Positions 10,358 through 18,557 of a stretch of DNA of 64,000 nucleotides are shown piece by piece; within the stretch, counting starts at the first letter, position 1, and each line of letters starts with the position of its first letter. The position numbers and the translations under genes were made by a program. The stretch is from Halorussus litoreus (lineage in GTDB: Archaea; Halobacteriota; Halobacteria; Halobacteriales; Haladaptataceae): contig NZ_KZ859512.1 in the NCBI RefSeq assembly GCF_003382685.1, positions 28,141 to 92,140 of the forward strand, read 5' to 3'. The notes under the pieces were generated by a model that was not told the DNA's origin, searched no databases, and saw only the letters and a list, made by a program, of their open reading frames with translations.

Positions 10358-10630
10358 CTACTCCTCGCGCCAGATAGCGGTCAGGACGGCGTCCTCGCCC
10401 TCGACCGTTTCGAAGACGTACCCTCGGTCGTCGAGCTTGGGGTAGAGATGCTGTGGCGCGCGGTCGTTCACCTGCACGAGGACCACGTCGTCGTCCAGTT
10501 CCGGAAGAGTTTCCAGCGTCTCGCTCAGGGGTTTCGGCGGCCCGAGCTCCCGCACGTCGAGCACCTCGCGGGGCCGGTCGCTCGGGGCGTCGGTGCGTGA
10601 GATCGCTCGCTCGGAGTAGTTCGTCTGCAT
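10358..10630 (-). CDS. DUF2249 protein
   Basis: A 90-aa protein with a DUF2249 domain, a TusA-like small alpha/beta fold: LDVRELGPPKPLSETLETL (about residues 23-41), DDDVVLVQVNDRAPQHLYPKL, and a last strand DAVLTAIWREE. It is one of three DUF2249 proteins in the island. The ATG at 10630 is chosen because the palindrome at 10669-10680 then sits 39 bp upstream, the same spacing as for the other island genes. The upstream in-frame start at 10717 would run the coding region through two palindromes. DUF2249 proteins are linked by genomic context to anaerobic nitrogen-oxide metabolism, but their biochemical role is not established. Confidence 0.85.
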   Translation of the reverse strand: MQTNYSERAISRTDAPSDRPREVLDVRELGPPKPLSETLETLPELDDDVVLVQVNDRAPQHLYPKLDDRGYVFETVEGEDAVLTAIWREE

Positions 10631-10668: not shown

Positions 10669-10680
10669 CGAACCAGTTCG
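10669..10680. promoter_or_regulatory. Island palindrome site 1 (perfect)
   Basis: CGAAC-CA-GTTCG, 39 bp upstream of the DUF2249 start at 10630, on the left side of a 130-bp divergent promoter holding three such sites. Confidence 0.75.
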
Positions 10681-10760: not shown

Positions 10761-11384
10761 ATGCCCACCGCGAAGCTGCACATCACGCTCCCCGAGAACG
10801 TCTGGATTCACCAGGTGTCGTCGGCCCACCCCGACGCCGAGTTCCGCGTGCTGGCTGCGTTCCCCGCCGAGGAGACGGGCGTCGGCCTGCTGGAGATCAC
10901 GGCCGAGAACCTGCCGCCGGTCGTGGGCGACATCGACGACCGCGACGACATCGTGCGCCTCGACCTCCATCAGGCCTCCGAGGAGACCGCGCTGGTGGAG
11001 TTCGAGACGACCGAACCGCTCCTGTTGCTCTCGGTCAGGGAGGCCGGACTTCCGCTCGAACTCCCGTTCACCATCCGGGACGGCGAGGCCGAGGTCGAGA
11101 TCACGGCCGCGCGCGACCGGCTCTCGGCGTTCACGTCCCAGCTGGAGGCGTTCGGGATGACCTTCGACGTGGAGTACGTCCGCGAACTCGTCAACTCCGA
11201 GAGCCTGCTGACCGACCGCCAGCAGGAACTGCTCGACGCCGCGGTCGAGGCGGGCTACTACGACACCCCGCGGGAGTGCTCGCTGACCGAGCTCGCCGAG
11301 CAGGCCGGCGTGGCGAAGTCGACCGCGAGCGAGACACTTCACCGCGTCGAGGAGAAGATCATCAAGGAGTACGTGTCGGGGTAG
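10761..11384 (+). CDS. Bat-type HTH_10 regulator (NarO/DmsR-like)
   Basis: A 207-aa regulator of the bacterio-opsin-activator class. Residues about 1-135 form a beta-rich N-terminal module, and the C-terminus (about 145-205) is an HTH_10 domain: LLTDRQQELLDAAVEAGYYDTPRECSLTELAEQAGVAKSTASETLHRVE. Haloarchaeal relatives NarO and DmsR control denitrification and DMSO respiration. NarO is described as carrying an N-terminal four-cysteine motif. This protein has only one Cys, in the HTH region, so if it is the island regulator it does not sense oxygen that way. It begins at the ATG at 10761; the frame upstream is blocked by palindromes. It is the only DNA-binding protein in the island and the best candidate to bind the palindromes. 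Confidence 0.88.
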   Translation: MPTAKLHITLPENVWIHQVSSAHPDAEFRVLAAFPAEETGVGLLEITAENLPPVVGDIDDRDDIVRLDLHQASEETALVEFETTEPLLLLSVREAGLPLELPFTIRDGEAEVEITAARDRLSAFTSQLEAFGMTFDVEYVRELVNSESLLTDRQQELLDAAVEAGYYDTPRECSLTELAEQAGVAKSTASETLHRVEEKIIKEYVSG

Positions 11385-12760: not shown

Positions 12761-12817
12761 GCTATTCGGCCGGCGACGGGTTCGGCTATTCGGCCCGTGA
12801 CGAGTTCGGCTATTCGG
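12756..12817. repeat. 24-bp direct repeats of a half-site
   Basis: The 14-mer GTTCGGCTATTCGG starts at 12756, 12780 and 12804, an exact 24-bp period, about two helical turns plus. Each copy contains the right half of the palindrome. The third copy overlaps the stop codon of the gene ending at 12810. Confidence 0.85.
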
Positions 12818-13136
12818 TCAACAGGTCGAGCGCGATCTCTGGATCTACTGCGCTGTCCCGGAGCGGACCGGTCCACTGCTCGACGAGGACGCCCGCGATG
12901 GCCGCCGAGAGTTCCACGACGGCGCGGCGCTGTTCCGGCGTGATCTCTTCTCGGGCTTCCAGTTTCCCGAGCGCGGCGTCGAGTTCCCGGCGACGGACGC
13001 GCTCGGCCCGATTCCGAATCTCCGCGACGACCGATTCGGAATCCAATTTCGCGTCCGTGTCCGCGTCTGCACCGCTCTCGGAGATTTCGGGGGATTCGGT
13101 GGCCGTCTCGCCGCGGGGCTCTACGAGATCGCTCAC
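12810..13136 (-). CDS. Glutamyl-tRNA-reductase dimerisation-domain-like protein
   Basis: A 108-aa protein whose middle (about residues 38-95: EIRNRAERVRRRELDAALGKL, ITPEQRRAVVELSAAIAGVLVEQWTGPLRDSA) matches the C-terminal dimerisation helix bundle of HemA glutamyl-tRNA reductase. The catalytic and NADPH domains are absent. I choose the GTG at 13136 (SDLVEPRGE...). It places the perfect palindrome 13175-13186 exactly 39 bp upstream, while the longer frame from 13274 runs through the palindrome and into repeat DNA. It is transcribed toward the porphyrinogen oxidase gene. It may be a regulator or partner of full-length HemA (not in the window) or a diverged heme-pathway accessory; this is inference. 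Confidence 0.7.
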   Translation of the reverse strand: MSDLVEPRGETATESPEISESGADADTDAKLDSESVVAEIRNRAERVRRRELDAALGKLEAREEITPEQRRAVVELSAAIAGVLVEQWTGPLRDSAVDPEIALDLLTE

Positions 13137-13174
13137 GTCGACTGCTTGGACTGGCGGCTTCGAGTCGACTGTCC

Positions 13175-13186
13175 CGAACCTGTTCG
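13175..13186. promoter_or_regulatory. Island palindrome site 5 (perfect)
   Basis: CGAAC-CT-GTTCG, 39 bp upstream of the GTG start at 13136. Confidence 0.75.
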
Positions 13187-13194
13187 GTTGATTT

Positions 13195-13460
13195 CGGTTC
13201 TGGCTGGGTGGTCGTGATGGTGTGCAGTGGTGTTGCGGTGGTCTGTAGTGCGGTTGCTGTGTTCCTAGGCGCAAACGCTAGTCTCTGGTTGTCCGAGAAG
13301 CTAGCTACTGCTTGAGCCTAGGAGACACCGCAACCGCTACCGCACAGCACCGCACCGCAACGCACGGGCCTCACACCTCCCCAGCCTCCTGCGCTTCTCG
13401 GGCTTCGCCCTGCGATGCTCGTCCCTCGCGCGCGTTGCTCGCACGCGCCGGGCCGAACGG
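13195..13460. repeat. Dispersed GC-rich repeat, copy R1 (two-armed)
   Basis: This gene-free gap (13187-13614) holds a two-armed repeat. The core at about 13264-13322 has CCTAGGC...GCTAG on the left and CTAGCTACTGCTTGAGCCTAGG on the right. The left arm is rich in GTGGTGTTGCGGTGG-type sequence. The right arm reads ACCGCAACCGC, CGCACAGCAC, CTCCCCAGCCTCCTGCG, CTTCTCGGGCTTCG, then GCTCGTCCCTCGCGCGCG. The same order of blocks recurs at 20.64-20.99 and 22.19-22.72 kb. After 13460 come two AGCGYACGCC-type motifs also seen near 60.1 kb. No coding region is credible here. Confidence 0.8.
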
Positions 13461-13614: not shown

Positions 13615-14715
13615 TCAGGCCTCGCCGTACCCCTCCTCCCACGGCAGCGGGCCGTCGTAGCCCTCCGGAACGAACGAGCAGAGCGGGTCGCTTTCCAGCG
13701 GGTCACCAGTGGTGGCGTAGGCTCGCGACCGGCTGCCGCCGCAGACGGTCCGGTACTGACAGGCCCCGCACTTGCCGCGCAGGGCGTCGGCGTCCCGCAG
13801 CGACTCGAACAGCTCCGAGTCCCGGTAGAGGTCCACGACGCTGTCCTCGCGGACGTGACCGGCCGACTCGGGTAGGAACCCCGAGGGGAACACCTCGCCG
13901 ACGTGGCTCACGAACGCGAAGCCGTCGCCTGCGGTGATGCCCATCTGTCGTTGAGGGGACTCGTCGGTATGCTGGACCGCGACCCGGCGGTAGTGGGGCG
14001 CTTCCGTGGTCTTGACGCCGAACGGCCACTCCTCGCGGCCGTCGACCAGCCACTCCATCACGCGCTCGGCGCGGTTGGGCGAGATGGCCCGGAGCGCGGC
14101 TCCCCGGCCCACGGGCACGAGGAAGAACACGCTCCACAGCACCGCGCCGAGGTCGGTCACGAGCTCCGCGATGTCGGGCAGATCGGCGATGGTCTGCTGG
14201 CAGACCGTGGTGTTGACCTGCAGCGGAATCCCCTCGTCGCGGGCGGCCTGCGCGGCCCGCATGGTGTCGGCGAAACTGCCCTGCTCGCCCCGGAAGGCGT
14301 CGTGGCGCTCGGCGGTCGCGCCGTCGACGCTGAGCGCCATCCGGCGGAGTCCGGCGTCCGCGAGGTCGGACACCGCGTCGCGAGTGAGCGAGTCGGTCCC
14401 GCTCGGAGTCATCGTCACGTTCAGCCCGAGGTCGGTGCCGTACTCCACGAGGTGGACCGCGTCGTCGCGCTTGAGCGGGTCGCCTCCGGAGAACACGACG
14501 AGCTGGCCCTCGCCGAACTCCCGGACGTCGTCGAGCAGGTCCTCGGCCTCCGCCGTCGTAAGCTCGTCCGGGTGGCGGTCGGGCTGGGCGTCGGCCCGGC
14601 AGTGTTCGCAGGTCAGCTCGCACGCCTGCGTGAGCTCCCAGATGAGCACGAGCGGTCGCTCGTCGGTGTCGACTCGCCGGGGCGGACCGGCCGAACGACG
14701 CGGTGAACTCGCCAT
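13615..14715 (-). CDS. Radical SAM/SPASM protein (AhbD/NirJ-like)
   Basis: A 366-aa radical SAM enzyme. The [4Fe-4S] SAM cluster motif CX3CX2C is at Cys32, Cys36 and Cys39 (ACELTCEHC), with the GGDP SAM motif at 77-80. The C-terminal SPASM-type cluster is formed by Cys316, Cys319, Cys325 and Cys346. The architecture is that of heme-pathway enzymes AhbC/AhbD and the heme d1 enzyme NirJ, as well as of peptide-modifying PqqE-like proteins. Beside a porphyrinogen oxidase and a HemA-like protein, a tetrapyrrole role is the best guess. No cd1 nitrite reductase is present here, so heme d1 synthesis is unlikely. It starts 10 bp after the halocyanin stop, so the two are probably one transcript. Confidence 0.85.
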   Translation of the reverse strand: MASSPRRSAGPPRRVDTDERPLVLIWELTQACELTCEHCRADAQPDRHPDELTTAEAEDLLDDVREFGEGQLVVFSGGDPLKRDDAVHLVEYGTDLGLNVTMTPSGTDSLTRDAVSDLADAGLRRMALSVDGATAERHDAFRGEQGSFADTMRAAQAARDEGIPLQVNTTVCQQTIADLPDIAELVTDLGAVLWSVFFLVPVGRGAALRAISPNRAERVMEWLVDGREEWPFGVKTTEAPHYRRVAVQHTDESPQRQMGITAGDGFAFVSHVGEVFPSGFLPESAGHVREDSVVDLYRDSELFESLRDADALRGKCGACQYRTVCGGSRSRAYATTGDPLESDPLCSFVPEGYDGPLPWEEGYGEA

Positions 14716-14725
14716 AGTGTGGTCC

Positions 14726-15226
14726 TTATTCCACGACGACCGCGCCCTTCATCCCCATCGTCTCGTGGGGGACGCAGATGTACTCGTACGTGCCGGTGCT
14801 GTCGAACGTCTGCTCGAAGGTGAACCCCTCCTCGCTGGTCTGCTCGCTCTCGAACGAACCGTCCTCCGCGACCACGTTGTGCATGCTTCCCTTCCCGGTC
14901 CACTCCCAGACCACGTTCGTCCCGGAGGAGATCTTCACTGCGGCGGGCGAGAACGCGAAGTTCCCGCCGTTGCCCTGGGCTCCGACCTCGACCGTGACCT
15001 CGTCGGAGCCGGTCTCGTCGACCACGCCGTCGAAGTTGCCTACGTTTTCGAACCAGCCGCCGAAGTCGGTCGAACCGTCGCCGGAGCCGTCGTCGGATCC
15101 GTCACCGTCTCCGCCGTCGTTGCCGTCACCGTCTCCGCCGCCGCTCGAACAGCCGGCCAGCGCGACGCTCGCGCCGACCGCCATCGCCTTCAGTGCCGTA
15201 CGTCGGGTGGGGTTGTACTCGGTCAT
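14726..15226 (-). CDS. Halocyanin (blue copper electron carrier)
   Basis: A 166-aa secreted lipoprotein cupredoxin. The N-terminus has twin Arg (residues 8-9), a hydrophobic stretch and the lipobox LAGC with Cys26. An acidic Gly/Asp/Ser linker (about 29-52) leads to a plastocyanin-like domain. The type 1 copper ligands are visible: His116 (GSMHNVV), Cys151, His154 and Met159 (YICVPHETMGMKG). Halocyanins carry electrons on the outer face of the membrane and are the likely donor to NirK. It shares a transcript with the radical SAM gene. A TATA-like element at 15249-15257 and a perfect palindrome at 15296-15307 lie upstream. Confidence 0.93.
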   Translation of the reverse strand: MTEYNPTRRTALKAMAVGASVALAGCSSGGGDGDGNDGGDGDGSDDGSGDGSTDFGGWFENVGNFDGVVDETGSDEVTVEVGAQGNGGNFAFSPAAVKISSGTNVVWEWTGKGSMHNVVAEDGSFESEQTSEEGFTFEQTFDSTGTYEYICVPHETMGMKGAVVVE

Positions 15227-15295: not shown

Positions 15296-15307
15296 CGAAC
15301 CCGTTCG
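15296..15307. promoter_or_regulatory. Island palindrome site 6 (perfect)
   Basis: CGAAC-CC-GTTCG, 70 bp upstream of the halocyanin start. It overlaps a second inverted repeat CGTTCGG-TAGG-CCGAACG at 15302-15319, so half-sites are stacked here. Confidence 0.7.
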
Positions 15308-15386: not shown

Positions 15387-15398
15387 CGAACATAGTCG
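15387..15398. promoter_or_regulatory. Imperfect island palindrome
   Basis: CGAAC-AT-AGTCG, 39 bp upstream of the GTG start at 15437, the same spacing as the perfect sites. This supports both the site and the start. Confidence 0.55.
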
Positions 15399-15436: not shown

Positions 15437-15652
15437 GTGACCGCGAACGAACTCGACGCTCGGGAGATAGACGGCGAACCGTTCGACGACATCGTGGCCG
15501 CACTCGGGGATCTCGGCGACGACGACACGCTGGTGCTCGTCAACAGTTTCGAGCCCGAACCGCTGTACGATGTGCTCGACGACCGGGGGTTCGACCACGA
15601 GTCCGAGCAGGTCGCGGCCGACGAGTGGCGGGTCGAGATCACGCCGCGGTAA
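15437..15652 (+). CDS. DUF2249 protein
   Basis: A 71-aa protein with GTG start that is entirely one DUF2249 domain: LDAREIDGEPFDDIVAALGDL, DDDTLVLVNSFEPEPLYDVLDDRGF and a last strand EWRVEITPR. It is the same family as the proteins at 10358 and 16215 but clearly diverged from both. It is divergent from halocyanin and followed by a cupin gene. The family's conserved EP.PL.. and DVRE patterns are kept; the function is unknown. Confidence 0.85.
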   Translation: MTANELDAREIDGEPFDDIVAALGDLGDDDTLVLVNSFEPEPLYDVLDDRGFDHESEQVAADEWRVEITPR

Positions 15653-15668
15653 GCGCCTCCGCAGAAGC

Positions 15669-15680
15669 CGAACCTGTTCG
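15669..15680. promoter_or_regulatory. Island palindrome site 7 (perfect)
   Basis: CGAAC-CT-GTTCG, 38 bp upstream of the cupin start at 15718. Confidence 0.75.
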
Positions 15681-15717
15681 GGAAAGCCGCCACGGCCGCG
15701 CGGTCCGACCCTCCCAC

Positions 15718-16098
15718 ATGGTCGCGACAGACTTCGACGCCGAGCGCGAGTACGACGACGAGCGATTCTCGGCCCAGTCGACCTTCCGGAGCGACCGGAT
15801 GAAGGTGGTGCTGGGCTACTTCGAGCCGGGACAGTTCATCCCCGTCCACGCGCCCGACAGCGACGTAGCCATCACGGTCCGGGAGGGCTCGGGGGTCGTG
15901 CGCGACGGCGACGACGAGCACGCGGTCGGGCCGGGCGACGTGGTGGTCGTCCCGGCCGGCGAGGACCGCGGCGTGAAGGCGGGCGAGGAGCGACTGGAGG
16001 CGACGCTCGTGACCGCGCCGCCGCCGACCGACGCCGAACACGACCCCGTGCGCGAGGGACTGAAGCGCGGCGAGTTCGTCCCGCGCGCGGACGACTGA
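15718..16098 (+). CDS. Cupin-domain protein
   Basis: A 126-aa small cupin. Strands MKVVLGYFEPGQFIPVHAPDSDVAITVREGSGVV and HAVGPGDVVVVPAGEDRGVKAG give cupin motifs 1 and 2. The usual HxH...E of motif 1 is reduced: a single His in PVHAPDSDV, with no clear Glu before the turn, so metal binding may be weakened. It is preceded by its own palindrome and followed by a DUF2249 and a second cupin. It may bind a metal, ligand or nitrogen oxide. The function is not known. Confidence 0.85.
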   Translation: MVATDFDAEREYDDERFSAQSTFRSDRMKVVLGYFEPGQFIPVHAPDSDVAITVREGSGVVRDGDDEHAVGPGDVVVVPAGEDRGVKAGEERLEATLVTAPPPTDAEHDPVREGLKRGEFVPRADD

Positions 16099-16161
16099 AA
16101 GGAGAGAAACGGAGAGAGCGACGACAAACGGAGCGGAGAGAAACGCCGCTCCTTCTCTAAC

Positions 16162-16173
16162 CGAACATATTCG
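16162..16173. promoter_or_regulatory. Island palindrome site 9 (one mismatch)
   Basis: CGAAC-AT-ATTCG, one mismatch in the right half, 42 bp upstream of the DUF2249 start at 16215. Confidence 0.65.
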
Positions 16174-16214
16174 GGAGAGGGGCGAAGGTCGGTGGTCGAC
16201 TACGTTCTCCTGTC

Positions 16215-16442
16215 ATGCCGACCTTAGACGTCCGCGAGATTCCACCGCCGGAACGCCACCCGAAGATCCACGACACCTTCGCGGAGATGGACAGCGGCGA
16301 GGTGCTCGAGATCGTCAACGATCACGAGCCAAAGCCCCTGTTCTACGAGATGCAGGCCGAGGTCGAGGCGTTCGACGCCGACGCGTACGAGGCCGAACGC
16401 GAAGGCGACGCGAAGTTCGTGGCGCGATTTCCCAAGAAATGA
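16215..16442 (+). CDS. DUF2249 protein
   Basis: A 75-aa protein consisting of one DUF2249 domain: LDVREIPPPERHPKIHDTFAEM, GEVLEIVNDHEPKPLFYEMQAE, and a C-terminal strand DAKFVARFPKK. Its VNDHEPKPL block includes a His that is typical of DUF2249 proteins with possible metal or heme association. It is the third DUF2249 paralogue of the island. It lies between the two cupins and is separated from the next cupin by a 75-bp gap with an imperfect 28-bp tandem repeat. Confidence 0.88.
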   Translation: MPTLDVREIPPPERHPKIHDTFAEMDSGEVLEIVNDHEPKPLFYEMQAEVEAFDADAYEAEREGDAKFVARFPKK

Positions 16443-16517
16443 CCCTGGCGCGATTCCCGAACAGATGACCGGACTGCGAGGGTCCGAAGAAACGACCGGA
16501 TTGCGAGGTTTCGAACG

Positions 16518-16829
16518 ATGACGGTCGAGACCGCTACGCTGGACGACCTGACCGTGACGCCCCGCGAGGTGGCGTTCCCGGGGTCCGAGCCGAAGACGGT
16601 CCGGCTCGCGCTCGACGAGGGCGACGAGGTGCCCGCCCACCGCCACCCCGAGCGCGAGATCGTGGTGTATCTGGTGTCGGGCCGCCTCGACGTGCAGGTA
16701 GAGGGAGAGTCGAACGTGCTGGAACCGGGCGATCTCCTGCGGTTCGACGGTCGAGACGAGGTGTCGCCGAAGGCCGAAGCCGACAGCGTCGCGCTGCTGG
16801 TGCTGGCTCCTCGGTCCGACGAGGAGTGA
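16518..16829 (+). CDS. Cupin-domain protein
   Basis: A 103-aa small cupin with a better kept metal site than its neighbour: motif 1 reads VPAHRHPEREIVVYLVSGRLDV (two His and a Glu) and motif 2 VLEPGDLLRFDGRDEVSPKAE. It probably binds a divalent metal. It is likely co-transcribed with the DUF2249 gene upstream, as no palindrome lies in the 75-bp gap. It is the last gene before the repeat-rich gap and nirK. Confidence 0.86.
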   Translation: MTVETATLDDLTVTPREVAFPGSEPKTVRLALDEGDEVPAHRHPEREIVVYLVSGRLDVQVEGESNVLEPGDLLRFDGRDEVSPKAEADSVALLVLAPRSDEE

Positions 16830-16904
16830 GTCGTTTTCTATTTTTGCCGCAGTTACGGTGGCGTCTCTACTGAGTGGAGTCTGGGCAGTTGTGACGGGGA
16901 GCGG

Positions 16905-17150
16905 TCCACGAAGCCAGCTACTGCTTGCGCCTCGCAGAACCCGCACAGCACCGCAACAGCACAGCACCGCAACAGCACAGCACTGCAACGGCACAGCACC
17001 GCAACCGCCCAGCACTGCAACCGCCCAGCACCGCAACAGCACAGCACTACAACGGCACAGCACCGCGCCCGCACCGCGCCTCGTGCCCCCCTGCCGCGCC
17101 TGCGCGCGCCTTCGTGAAGGCGCGCGCAGGCGTGACGCGTACCCGTGGAC
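16905..17150. repeat. Dispersed repeat, copy R4 (one arm) with CACAGCACCGCAA tandem array
   Basis: The gap 16830-17382 has no credible gene. From about 16905 it carries the repeat core (CAGCTACTGCTTGCGCCTCG). This is followed by roughly ten irregular tandem units of CACAGCACCGCAACAG or CACAGCACTGCAACGG type (about 16945-17070), then a GC-rich tail with the hairpin GCGCGCCTTC-GTG-AAGGCGCGCGC near 17107. Two direct repeats of CACGGAGTGCARGC follow (about 17157 and 17189). The tandem array is an expansion of a block present once or twice in the other copies. Confidence 0.75.
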
Positions 17151-17382
17151 CGGTTCACGGAGTGCAGGCAGTCAGTTCTGAAGTCCACGGAGTGCAAGCG
17201 GTCGGCTCTGAAGGCGGTCGGTTCTCGCGGACTGCGGAGTCGTGCGTCGTCGGCCGGGGTATCCGGTCGGCCAGTTCGTGCGACGACTGAACGCCGCCCT
17301 CGCTCTCCTGTTCGCGATCACTGAGCTCTCCGGCCGTGTTCGGTTCGTTACCAGCCTCGATTCTCAGAACCCGAGAACGCCG

Positions 17383-17394
17383 CGAACACGTTCG
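17383..17394. promoter_or_regulatory. Island palindrome site 8 (perfect), nirK promoter
   Basis: CGAAC-AC-GTTCG, 81 bp before the nirK start. The longer distance suggests that nirK has a 5' leader, unlike most island genes, and a GGTGA ribosome-binding-like sequence lies at about 17466. Confidence 0.75.
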
Positions 17395-17474
17395 TCAGCC
17401 TTCTAACCGGCCGAGAATCGCCGTCTCTGTTGAAGGGGGTTCGTCGTCTATCCACGAGTGTAAGGTGACAGACG

Positions 17475-18557
17475 ATGACCGGAACCAACCGACGAACGGT
17501 CCTGCAGGGTATCGGCGTGGGCGGAGCCGCGGCGCTCGCTGGCTGTGCGACCGAGTCCGCCCCGCAAGCGAGTACCGAGACGACCCGACAGACGACGGAA
17601 CAAGCCATGAACCAGCAAAAACAGACGACGGCCGACCGCGTCGCCGCCGACCCGACTGACATCCCAGACCCCATCGACCGCGACGAGCCCGCCGAGGTCG
17701 ACGTGACGCTTCGTGCCGAGGAGGTCACGGCCGAGATCGAGGAGGGAGTCACGTTCAACTTCATGACCTTCAACGGGCGGATTCCCGGGCCGATGGTCCG
17801 GGTCCGGCAGGGTGACACGGTCAACCTGACGTTCGAGAACCCCGAGGAGAACGACTTGCCGCACAACGTGGACTTCCACGCGTGCTACGGGCCGGGCGGC
17901 GGTGCCGACGCCACGACGGTTCCGCCGGGCGAGACGGCCAACCTGAAGTTCAAGGCGACCTACCCCGGCGCGTTCATCTACCACTGCGCGGTCCCGAACA
18001 TGGACATGCACATCTCGGCGGGTATGTTCGGCACCATCCTCGTCGAACCCAAAGAAGGCCTGCCCGAGGTCGACCACGAGTTCTTCCTCGGCCAGCACGA
18101 GATCTACACCGACAAGCGCGCGGGCGAGTCGGGCCACCACAAGTTCGACATGAAGTCGATGCCCCGCGAGGAGCCGACCTACGTCGTGATGAACGGCGAG
18201 CAGTACGCGCTCACGCCCGACAAGTACGGCGCGATGAACGTCGAGACGGGCGACACCGCGCGGGTGTACTTCGTCACGGGCGGCCCGAACCTCACCAGCA
18301 GCTTCCACCCCATCGGTAACGTGTGGAAGGAACTCTACCCGCGGGGATCGCTGGCGTCCGAGACCCAGAAGTACGTCGAGACCACACCGGTCGCGCCCGG
18401 TACCACGACCGTCGCGACCATGGAGTTCCCGGTGCCGGGCGGGGTCAAGCTGGTCGACCACGCGCTCAGCCGGGTCGCTCGCAAGGGCTGCATGTCGGTC
18501 ATCGCCGCCGAGGGCGAGGAGAAGCCCGAGATATTCGACCCCGAGCCGAACGCGTGA
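17475..18557 (+). CDS. nirK: Copper-containing nitrite reductase
   Basis: A 360-aa NirK reducing nitrite to nitric oxide outside the membrane. The N-terminus is a Tat lipoprotein signal (Arg-Arg at 6-7, lipobox LAGC, Cys24) and a Gln/Thr linker. Two cupredoxin domains follow. All copper ligands are present by alignment to the family pattern: type 1 His130, Cys171, His179 and Met184; type 2 His135, His170 and His278. The family Asp and His catalytic region is kept (NVDFHAC near 131-137). Unusual is CYGPGGG where relatives usually have a VTGPGGG-like sequence, which adds a Cys (137) beside the type 2 copper loop. The likely electron donor is the halocyanin at 14726. No nitrate, NO or N2O reductase is in the window. 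Confidence 0.95.
   Translation: MTGTNRRTVLQGIGVGGAAALAGCATESAPQASTETTRQTTEQAMNQQKQTTADRVAADPTDIPDPIDRDEPAEVDVTLRAEEVTAEIEEGVTFNFMTFNGRIPGPMVRVRQGDTVNLTFENPEENDLPHNVDFHACYGPGGGADATTVPPGETANLKFKATYPGAFIYHCAVPNMDMHISAGMFGTILVEPKEGLPEVDHEFFLGQHEIYTDKRAGESGHHKFDMKSMPREEPTYVVMNGEQYALTPDKYGAMNVETGDTARVYFVTGGPNLTSSFHPIGNVWKELYPRGSLASETQKYVETTPVAPGTTTVATMEFPVPGGVKLVDHALSRVARKGCMSVIAAEGEEKPEIFDPEPNA

Follow-up and report, generated by a model that had tools for sequence, protein, structure and literature searches.

The window, a 64,000-nucleotide stretch of Halorussus litoreus DNA, carries four small genes on the forward strand, flanked by a halocyanin gene on the opposite strand and by nirK (Table 1). 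By open reading frames and profile matches these genes alternate between DUF2249 and cupin families, and we refer to them as DUF1, CUP1, DUF2 and CUP2. The initial annotation had described this order, and the reading frames lie at essentially the coordinates it gave; its third DUF2249 gene beside a regulator was likewise recovered as DUFc, which diverges from the HTH_10 gene REG. All three DUF2249 genes exceed the PF10006 gathering cut-off of 29.5 bits and both cupins exceed that of Cupin_2 (PF07883, 27.2 bits); the genome holds no DUF2249 genes other than DUF1, DUF2 and DUFc. REG has a single cysteine and no known sensory domain at cut-off. A small GlutR-dimer-like gene sits between the PPOX-like and radical SAM genes and is kept in several relatives.

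Table 1. Genes, palindromes and repeats around the DUF2249-cupin cassette, in window coordinates
Feature	Position	Strand	Description
DUFc	10358-10630	-	third DUF2249 paralogue, best start 10630; NDRxPxxL type; PF10006 50.3 bits
Perfect palindrome	10669-10680	.	50 bp before DUFc
Perfect palindrome	10711		50 bp before REG
Perfect palindrome	10748
REG	10761-11384	+	HTH_10 (bacterio-opsin-activator-like) regulator, divergent from DUFc
Perfect palindrome	12749		47 bp before PPOX-like gene
GlutR-dimer-like gene	12810-13199	-	small protein; glutamyl-tRNA reductase dimerisation-domain match, 28 bits (cut-off 22.9)
Perfect palindrome	13175		GlutR-dimer-like gene
rSAM	13615-14715	-	radical SAM/SPASM TIGR04053 (AhbD/NirJ-like), downstream of halocyanin; 489 bits, above cut-off
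Halocyanin	14726-15226	-	Tat lipoprotein; TIGR03102 158 bits
Perfect palindrome	15296-15307	.	81 bp before halocyanin
7/8 palindrome CGAACATAGTCG	15387-15398	+	50 bp before DUF1 GTG start
DUF1	15437-15652	+	71-aa DUF2249, GTG start; PF10006 65.5 bits
Perfect palindrome CGAACCTGTTCG	15669-15680	.	49 bp before CUP1 start
CUP1	15718-16098	+	126-aa cupin, ATG 15718; Cupin_2 33.2 bits
Perfect palindrome CGAACATATTCG	16162-16173	.	53 bp before DUF2 start
DUF2	16215-16442	+	75-aa canonical DrpA-like DUF2249; PF10006 86.3 bits
CUP2	16518-16829	+	103-aa cupin; Cupin_2 41.3 bits
Tandem repeat	~16925-17084		16-bp repeat
Inverted repeat	17097-17132		perfect, 17 bp
Perfect palindrome CGAACACGTTCG	17383-17394	.	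92 bp before nirK start
nirK	17475-18557	+	copper nitrite reductase, Tat signal; TIGR02376 433 bits

We found no match to qNor anywhere in the window genome and, by tblastn, no qNor pseudogene in the window. Genus mates L011-L014 carry qNor between CUP2 and nirK, and L015 carries it between halocyanin and nirK; in its place, at 16830-17475, the window has the tandem and inverted repeats listed in Table 1. Contig 45 of G000 (L246:1179-2981) encodes a haem-copper oxidase subunit I that is divergent and reads GHGTQQ at the site of the oxidase motif GHPxVY. A substitution to glutamine has been described as typical of eNOR, which has been reported in Halobacteria (PMC8756737), and by its sequence this oxidase may be an eNOR standing in for the absent qNor.

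The perfect palindrome CGAAN4TTCG occurs 12 times in the 64 kb, and nine of the 12 lie within 10.3-17.48 kb (binomial p = 4.5e-7). As had been suggested earlier, most of the set have their own copy: CUP1, DUF2 and DUFc follow perfect boxes and DUF1 a 7/8 box, while CUP2 has no box of its own in the window and probably shares one transcript with DUF2. The nirK promoter carries the same box, in keeping with the proposal that this is a conserved set co-regulated with NirK, at least as judged by the motif. When orthologous loci were scored for a box matching at 7/8 or better 46-58 bp upstream, it was present at 40/98 loci for CUP1, 49/67 for DUF2, 24/38 for REG and 19/60 for CUP2. It was also seen at 14 of 41 "lone" CUP1 loci, defined by finding no nirK, qNor, DUF2249 or CUP2 within 6 kb, compared with 15 of 392 control stretches of equal width, which lay farther upstream of the full set of CUP1 genes (p = 1.4e-8). 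A search for a shared neighbour of these 41 loci returned genus-specific synteny only, with no common function. The same palindrome is required for nirK expression in Haloferax volcanii, where ahbD bears it too (PMC5746218), and the motif CGAAYATDKTYG is the mark of H. mediterranei denitrification promoters (PMC10062603, PMC11218638). Since the box stands at a fixed promoter distance and is kept in orthologues, even at lone CUP1 loci, the predicted membership of these genes in the denitrification regulon is well supported. REG, which matches E6P09_00735 of H. mediterranei in position and type (PMC11218638), is a candidate reader of the palindrome.

To characterize the proteins further, we compared their conserved residues and predicted structures. 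CUP1 forms a tight haloarchaeal family with 61-92% identity to the window copy (91-92% for the nearest named relatives, Halorussus halobius and H. aquaticus) and with FxPGQFIPVHxPxS, R62, R84-G85, PPP and H108 invariant. CUP2 is looser in sequence, with an invariant H41-x-H43-P (HxHP). The invariant residues of DUF2 are R14-H15 and N35-D36-H37-x-P-x-P-L; DUF1 is of a His-poor type that keeps FEPxPLY and lacks the RHP/NDH histidines (30 orthologues), and DUFc also lacks the conserved histidines of DUF2. Neither cupin has the four ligands of the classical metal-binding set (HxH...E in motif 1, H in motif 2): in CUP2 only H41 and H43 are invariant, and motif 1 of CUP1 retains only H44. The absence of most classical ligands from CUP1 counts against a metal-binding reading. 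Cysteine is absent from all four cassette proteins and inspection by eye revealed no signal peptide in them; Tat signals, by contrast, are present in NirK and halocyanin. The lack of a visible signal peptide points to a cytoplasmic location, and this, together with the absence of cysteine, makes copper loading of NirK unlikely.

A DUF2249-CUP2 fusion protein was modelled by AlphaFold with pLDDT 94 and a pTM of 0.70, so that the placement of its domains is less sure; in the CUP1 model the cupin core is good (overall pLDDT 78). The nearest solved cupins (2q30, 1v70 and 3fjs) come from structural genomics and have no function assigned to them. Sequence searches returned no solved relative of DUF2249, and the matches listed by the fold search with the fusion were taken up by its cupin part. 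For a TusA/SirA fold, profile scores in the window were 14.1 and 16.1 bits, with 21.9 for DrpB (cut-off 28.6); hhalign against one TusA-family protein gave a probability of 3%, and the predicted order of elements was b-a-b-a-b-b. The ScdA_N and hemerythrin domains of Ric/YtfE were not found in the cassette proteins.

The two families also occur as one protein. DUF2249-CUP2 is a single ORF of 180-220 aa in seven genomes (domains confirmed for one), and in Haloprofundus sp. MHR1 the fusion adjoins nirK, after two more DUF2249 genes. This natural fusion suggests that DUF2249 and CUP2 are functionally joined. In five loci DUF2249 forms the C-terminus of a NUBPL/Mrp-type iron-transfer NTPase (FeS_assembly_P and NUBPL matches), a type also known from the H. 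mediterranei nar operon (PMC11218638). In addition, four-DUF2249 proteins with ORF lengths of 340-675 aa are encoded at L051-L054, L071-L073, L094, L106, L108, L111 and L159; several adjoin CUP1, and one adjoins ric and a TusA-family gene.

Within the genus the order at L011 and L012 is NirK - qNor - CUP2 - DUF2 - CUP1 - DUF1 - halocyanin - rSAM. L015 (genome G273, same genus) has nirK, qNor, halocyanin, rSAM, the GlutR-like and PPOX-like genes and the regulator but not the four-gene cassette, and its genome gave zero DUF2249 or CUP1 matches; as nirK and qNor are retained there, the cassette is not essential. In another family the trio CUP1-DUF2-CUP2 is found again (L055, L056, L057, L062, L063, L088, L118, L126 and L127). 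CUP2 lies at most 2 kb from CUP1 in 39/98 loci (17/59 among the scored loci picked by rank only), typically -1 to +50 nt behind CUP1 or with DUF2 intervening. Other arrangements include CUP1-CUP2-nirK-DUF2249-rSAM in Halobellus limi; CUP2, a regulator, three DUF2249 genes and nirK together in Halomontanus; a CUP1-CUP2 pair in Natrinema sp. DC36, with TusA, DsrE and a multi-DUF2249 protein nearby; and both CUP1 and DUF2249 genes on plasmid pHH400 of Haloarcula hispanica. In Haloferax larsenii CUP1 lies directly upstream of ric, behind a siderophore biosynthesis operon (L158:709-7387); siderophore genes of H. mediterranei are strongly repressed during denitrification (PMC11218638). CUP1 directly precedes ric in L144 also, and ric is at most 6 kb away in L053, L108 and L111. 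No Ric match was found in the window genome, and Ric is absent from most of the genus mates tested. A CGCGG-family rSAM-modified RiPP precursor is often found near these nirK clusters, frequently with a TIGR04053 radical SAM gene (L015, L022-L025, L028, L040-L042, L045, L056, L057, L091, L157 and others); none was found in the window.

We then asked how the families are distributed among 391 haloarchaeal genomes, 208 with and 183 without nirK. DUF2249 was present in 195/208 nirK-positive and 74/183 nirK-negative genomes (odds ratio 22; Fisher p = 4e-32). CUP1, scored at E < 1e-20, a threshold at which it stands clearly apart from other cupins, was found in 149 genomes: 123 of the nirK-positive and 26 of the nirK-negative ones. 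DUF2249 accompanied it in 147 of the 149 (odds ratio 72). All three associations (DUF2249 with nirK, CUP1 with DUF2249, CUP1 with nirK) held under within-genus permutation (p <= 5e-4). The initial annotation had proposed that frequent occurrence of these genes where nirK is missing would refute its reading. For DUF2249 such occurrence is partly seen, in the 74 genomes above, yet qNor is over-represented among them: 43/74 have it, versus 13/80 of the nirK-negative genomes without DUF2249 (p = 6e-8; the 80 are the scored subset of 109). Split further, qNor was present in 19/24 nirK-negative genomes with CUP1, 24/50 with DUF2249 and no CUP1, and 13/80 with neither, and nirK or qNor was present in 142/147 scored CUP1 genomes. 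This enrichment suggests that the partner of the module is NO metabolism and not NirK itself. The 31/74 DUF2249-positive, nirK-negative genomes that also lack qNor, the one NO reductase that the survey covered, count against placing the module at the NO step.

Our best explanation, to which we give somewhat less than an even chance, is that the four genes and the third DUF2249 gene constitute a cytoplasmic accessory module within the denitrification regulon of haloarchaea, acting at the NO step. It draws on the co-regulation indicated by the box, the co-occurrence with genomes that produce or consume NO, the synteny and the fusions, while the adjacency of CUP1 to ric and the fusion of DUF2249 to an Fe-S carrier NTPase supply the link between iron and NO. 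The set has no catalytic step of its own, consistent with the earlier remark that no denitrification step is known for it. The module probably binds metal, and protection or repair of iron or Fe-S centres would be its task. In such a scheme the His-bearing DUF2249 and the HxH cupin CUP2 would form one functional unit alongside which CUP1 would act, and the three would jointly bind metal or an iron-nitrosyl species. Like Ric, the module would thereby guard or mend iron and Fe-S centres, at the same time as NO is being made by NirK across the membrane; the His-less DUF2249 paralogues might be partner or regulatory subunits. Cupins are reported to be induced by NO together with hcp in Desulfovibrio (PMC5701242) and as cupin-norB-nnrS2 in Sphingopyxis (PMC6472365), and the cupin NsrT accompanies the Ric-like NsrS in Thermus (PMC5748679); these are parallels and not proven orthologues of CUP1 or CUP2. 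More speculatively, and in our view rather improbably, DUF2249 and the HxH cupin could together make up a two-component protein, so far unrecognised, for capturing or dismantling iron-nitrosyl species or for bringing iron to Fe-S clusters damaged by NO, an archaeal counterpart of Ric in denitrifiers without Ric.

The main rival is a sensor or signal module, in which DrpA-like DUF2249 proteins and cupins would tune the adjacent HTH_10 regulator upon binding of nitrate, nitrite or NO. We regard this as possible but doubtful. Thermus DUF2249 proteins encoded downstream of nar, where DrpA lies, share 59% identity with DUF2 over 46 residues, and deletion of drpAB made nar expression independent of nitrate (PMC6282519); DUFc diverges from the regulator and is often near it, and REG, with its one cysteine, may need a separate signal input. 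On the other hand, maturation was also defective in the drpAB mutants, DrpA is reported to be periplasmic whereas the cassette proteins have no visible signal peptide, and a sensor would not be expected to comprise four or five separate small proteins, to be fused to an Fe-S NTPase or to adjoin ric. Supply or insertion of haem, with the module serving the AhbD-like rSAM, PPOX-like and GlutR-like genes and delivering haem to qNor, seems unlikely. In L011, L012 and L014 the halocyanin/rSAM/GlutR-like/PPOX-like genes form one block with the cassette, and they bear boxes in the window, and the palindrome of Haloferax volcanii ahbD would fit; however, the window genome retains the cassette though it has no qNor, L015 has lost the cassette yet still carries its haem genes, qNor and nirK, and in other families the CUP1-DUF2-CUP2 trio occurs without haem genes nearby (L055, L062).

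Chaperoning of copper, or maturation of NirK or halocyanin, could be imagined from the closeness of the cassette to both genes and from the ability of HxH cupins to bind copper (engineered TM1459 structures were among the fold matches). We consider it very unlikely, since NirK and halocyanin are Tat-exported while the cassette is predicted to be cytoplasmic, its proteins have no Cys and few Met, and DUF2249 occurs in 74 genomes without nirK. Copper delivery to NirK was set aside as belonging to the wrong compartment; of the roles offered by the initial annotation, handling of nitrite or NO and signal sensing stay live. It is most improbable that the genes are passengers that ride with nirK clusters and have no fixed role. 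L015 does without the cassette while retaining nirK and qNor, and some genomes have cassette genes and neither nirK nor qNor, but the invariant residues across 30-98 orthologues, the boxes at fixed distance even at lone CUP1 loci, the fusions and the co-occurrence within genera all speak against it.

The role of the set is not, as had been claimed, wholly unknown: the link between DUF2249 and denitrification is already published (PMC6282519, PMC11218638), including DrpA mutants in the former and DUF2249 induction in the latter, and so is the box. In the open-access literature we did not find the haloarchaeal CUP1 and CUP2 families, the fusions or the linkage to NO rather than NirK, an absence that argues only weakly for novelty. 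DUF2249, a domain that still lacks an explanation, is widespread in the neighbourhood of genes for nitrate, nitrite and NO, and the cupin fusion, the Fe-S carrier NTPase fusion and the ric neighbourhood narrow what it can be. CUP1 provides a clean marker family, nearly always found in genomes with DUF2249 and often under the denitrification box wherever it lies. If iron centres are indeed protected from NO by this module, that would explain how haloarchaeal denitrifiers lacking Ric survive the NO made by NirK.

Finally, we compared the cassette with the closest known systems. DrpA and DrpB of Thermus thermophilus belong to the DUF2249 family; DUF2 matches such proteins over the 46 residues and has the RH and NDH histidines in common with them, while DUF1 and DUFc lack these histidines. 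Like the cassette, the Drp proteins are linked to denitrification and induced with it, but the drp operon has no cupin partners and lies beside nar, not nir, and DrpB consists of DUF1858 and two DUF2249 domains. DrpA is the only DUF2249 protein with mutant data, which were read as nitrate sensing and nitrate reductase maturation (PMC6282519). In H. mediterranei the DUF2249 proteins E6P09_00770, _00795, _17395 and _17415 are under the same regulon motif; as in the window, DUF2249 genes there lie near nirK/nor, a bacterioopsin-activator-like regulator and halocyanins, and those near nirK/nor and nar/nos are induced under denitrification. That study mentions neither cupins nor DUF2249-cupin fusions nor a genome-wide link to qNor (PMC11218638). 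The NsrS-NsrT pair (ScdA_N and Cupin_2) of the Thermus nic cluster, proposed for repair of iron centres, likewise places a small cupin and a small partner beside nir/nor, but the partner of NsrT is the N-terminal domain of Ric and not DUF2249, and NsrT has two Cys (PMC5748679). Ric/YtfE/ScdA itself, whose gene immediately follows CUP1 in Haloferax larsenii and lies close to it at several loci, belongs to the di-iron hemerythrin-like proteins, and the cassette proteins have no domain of that kind.
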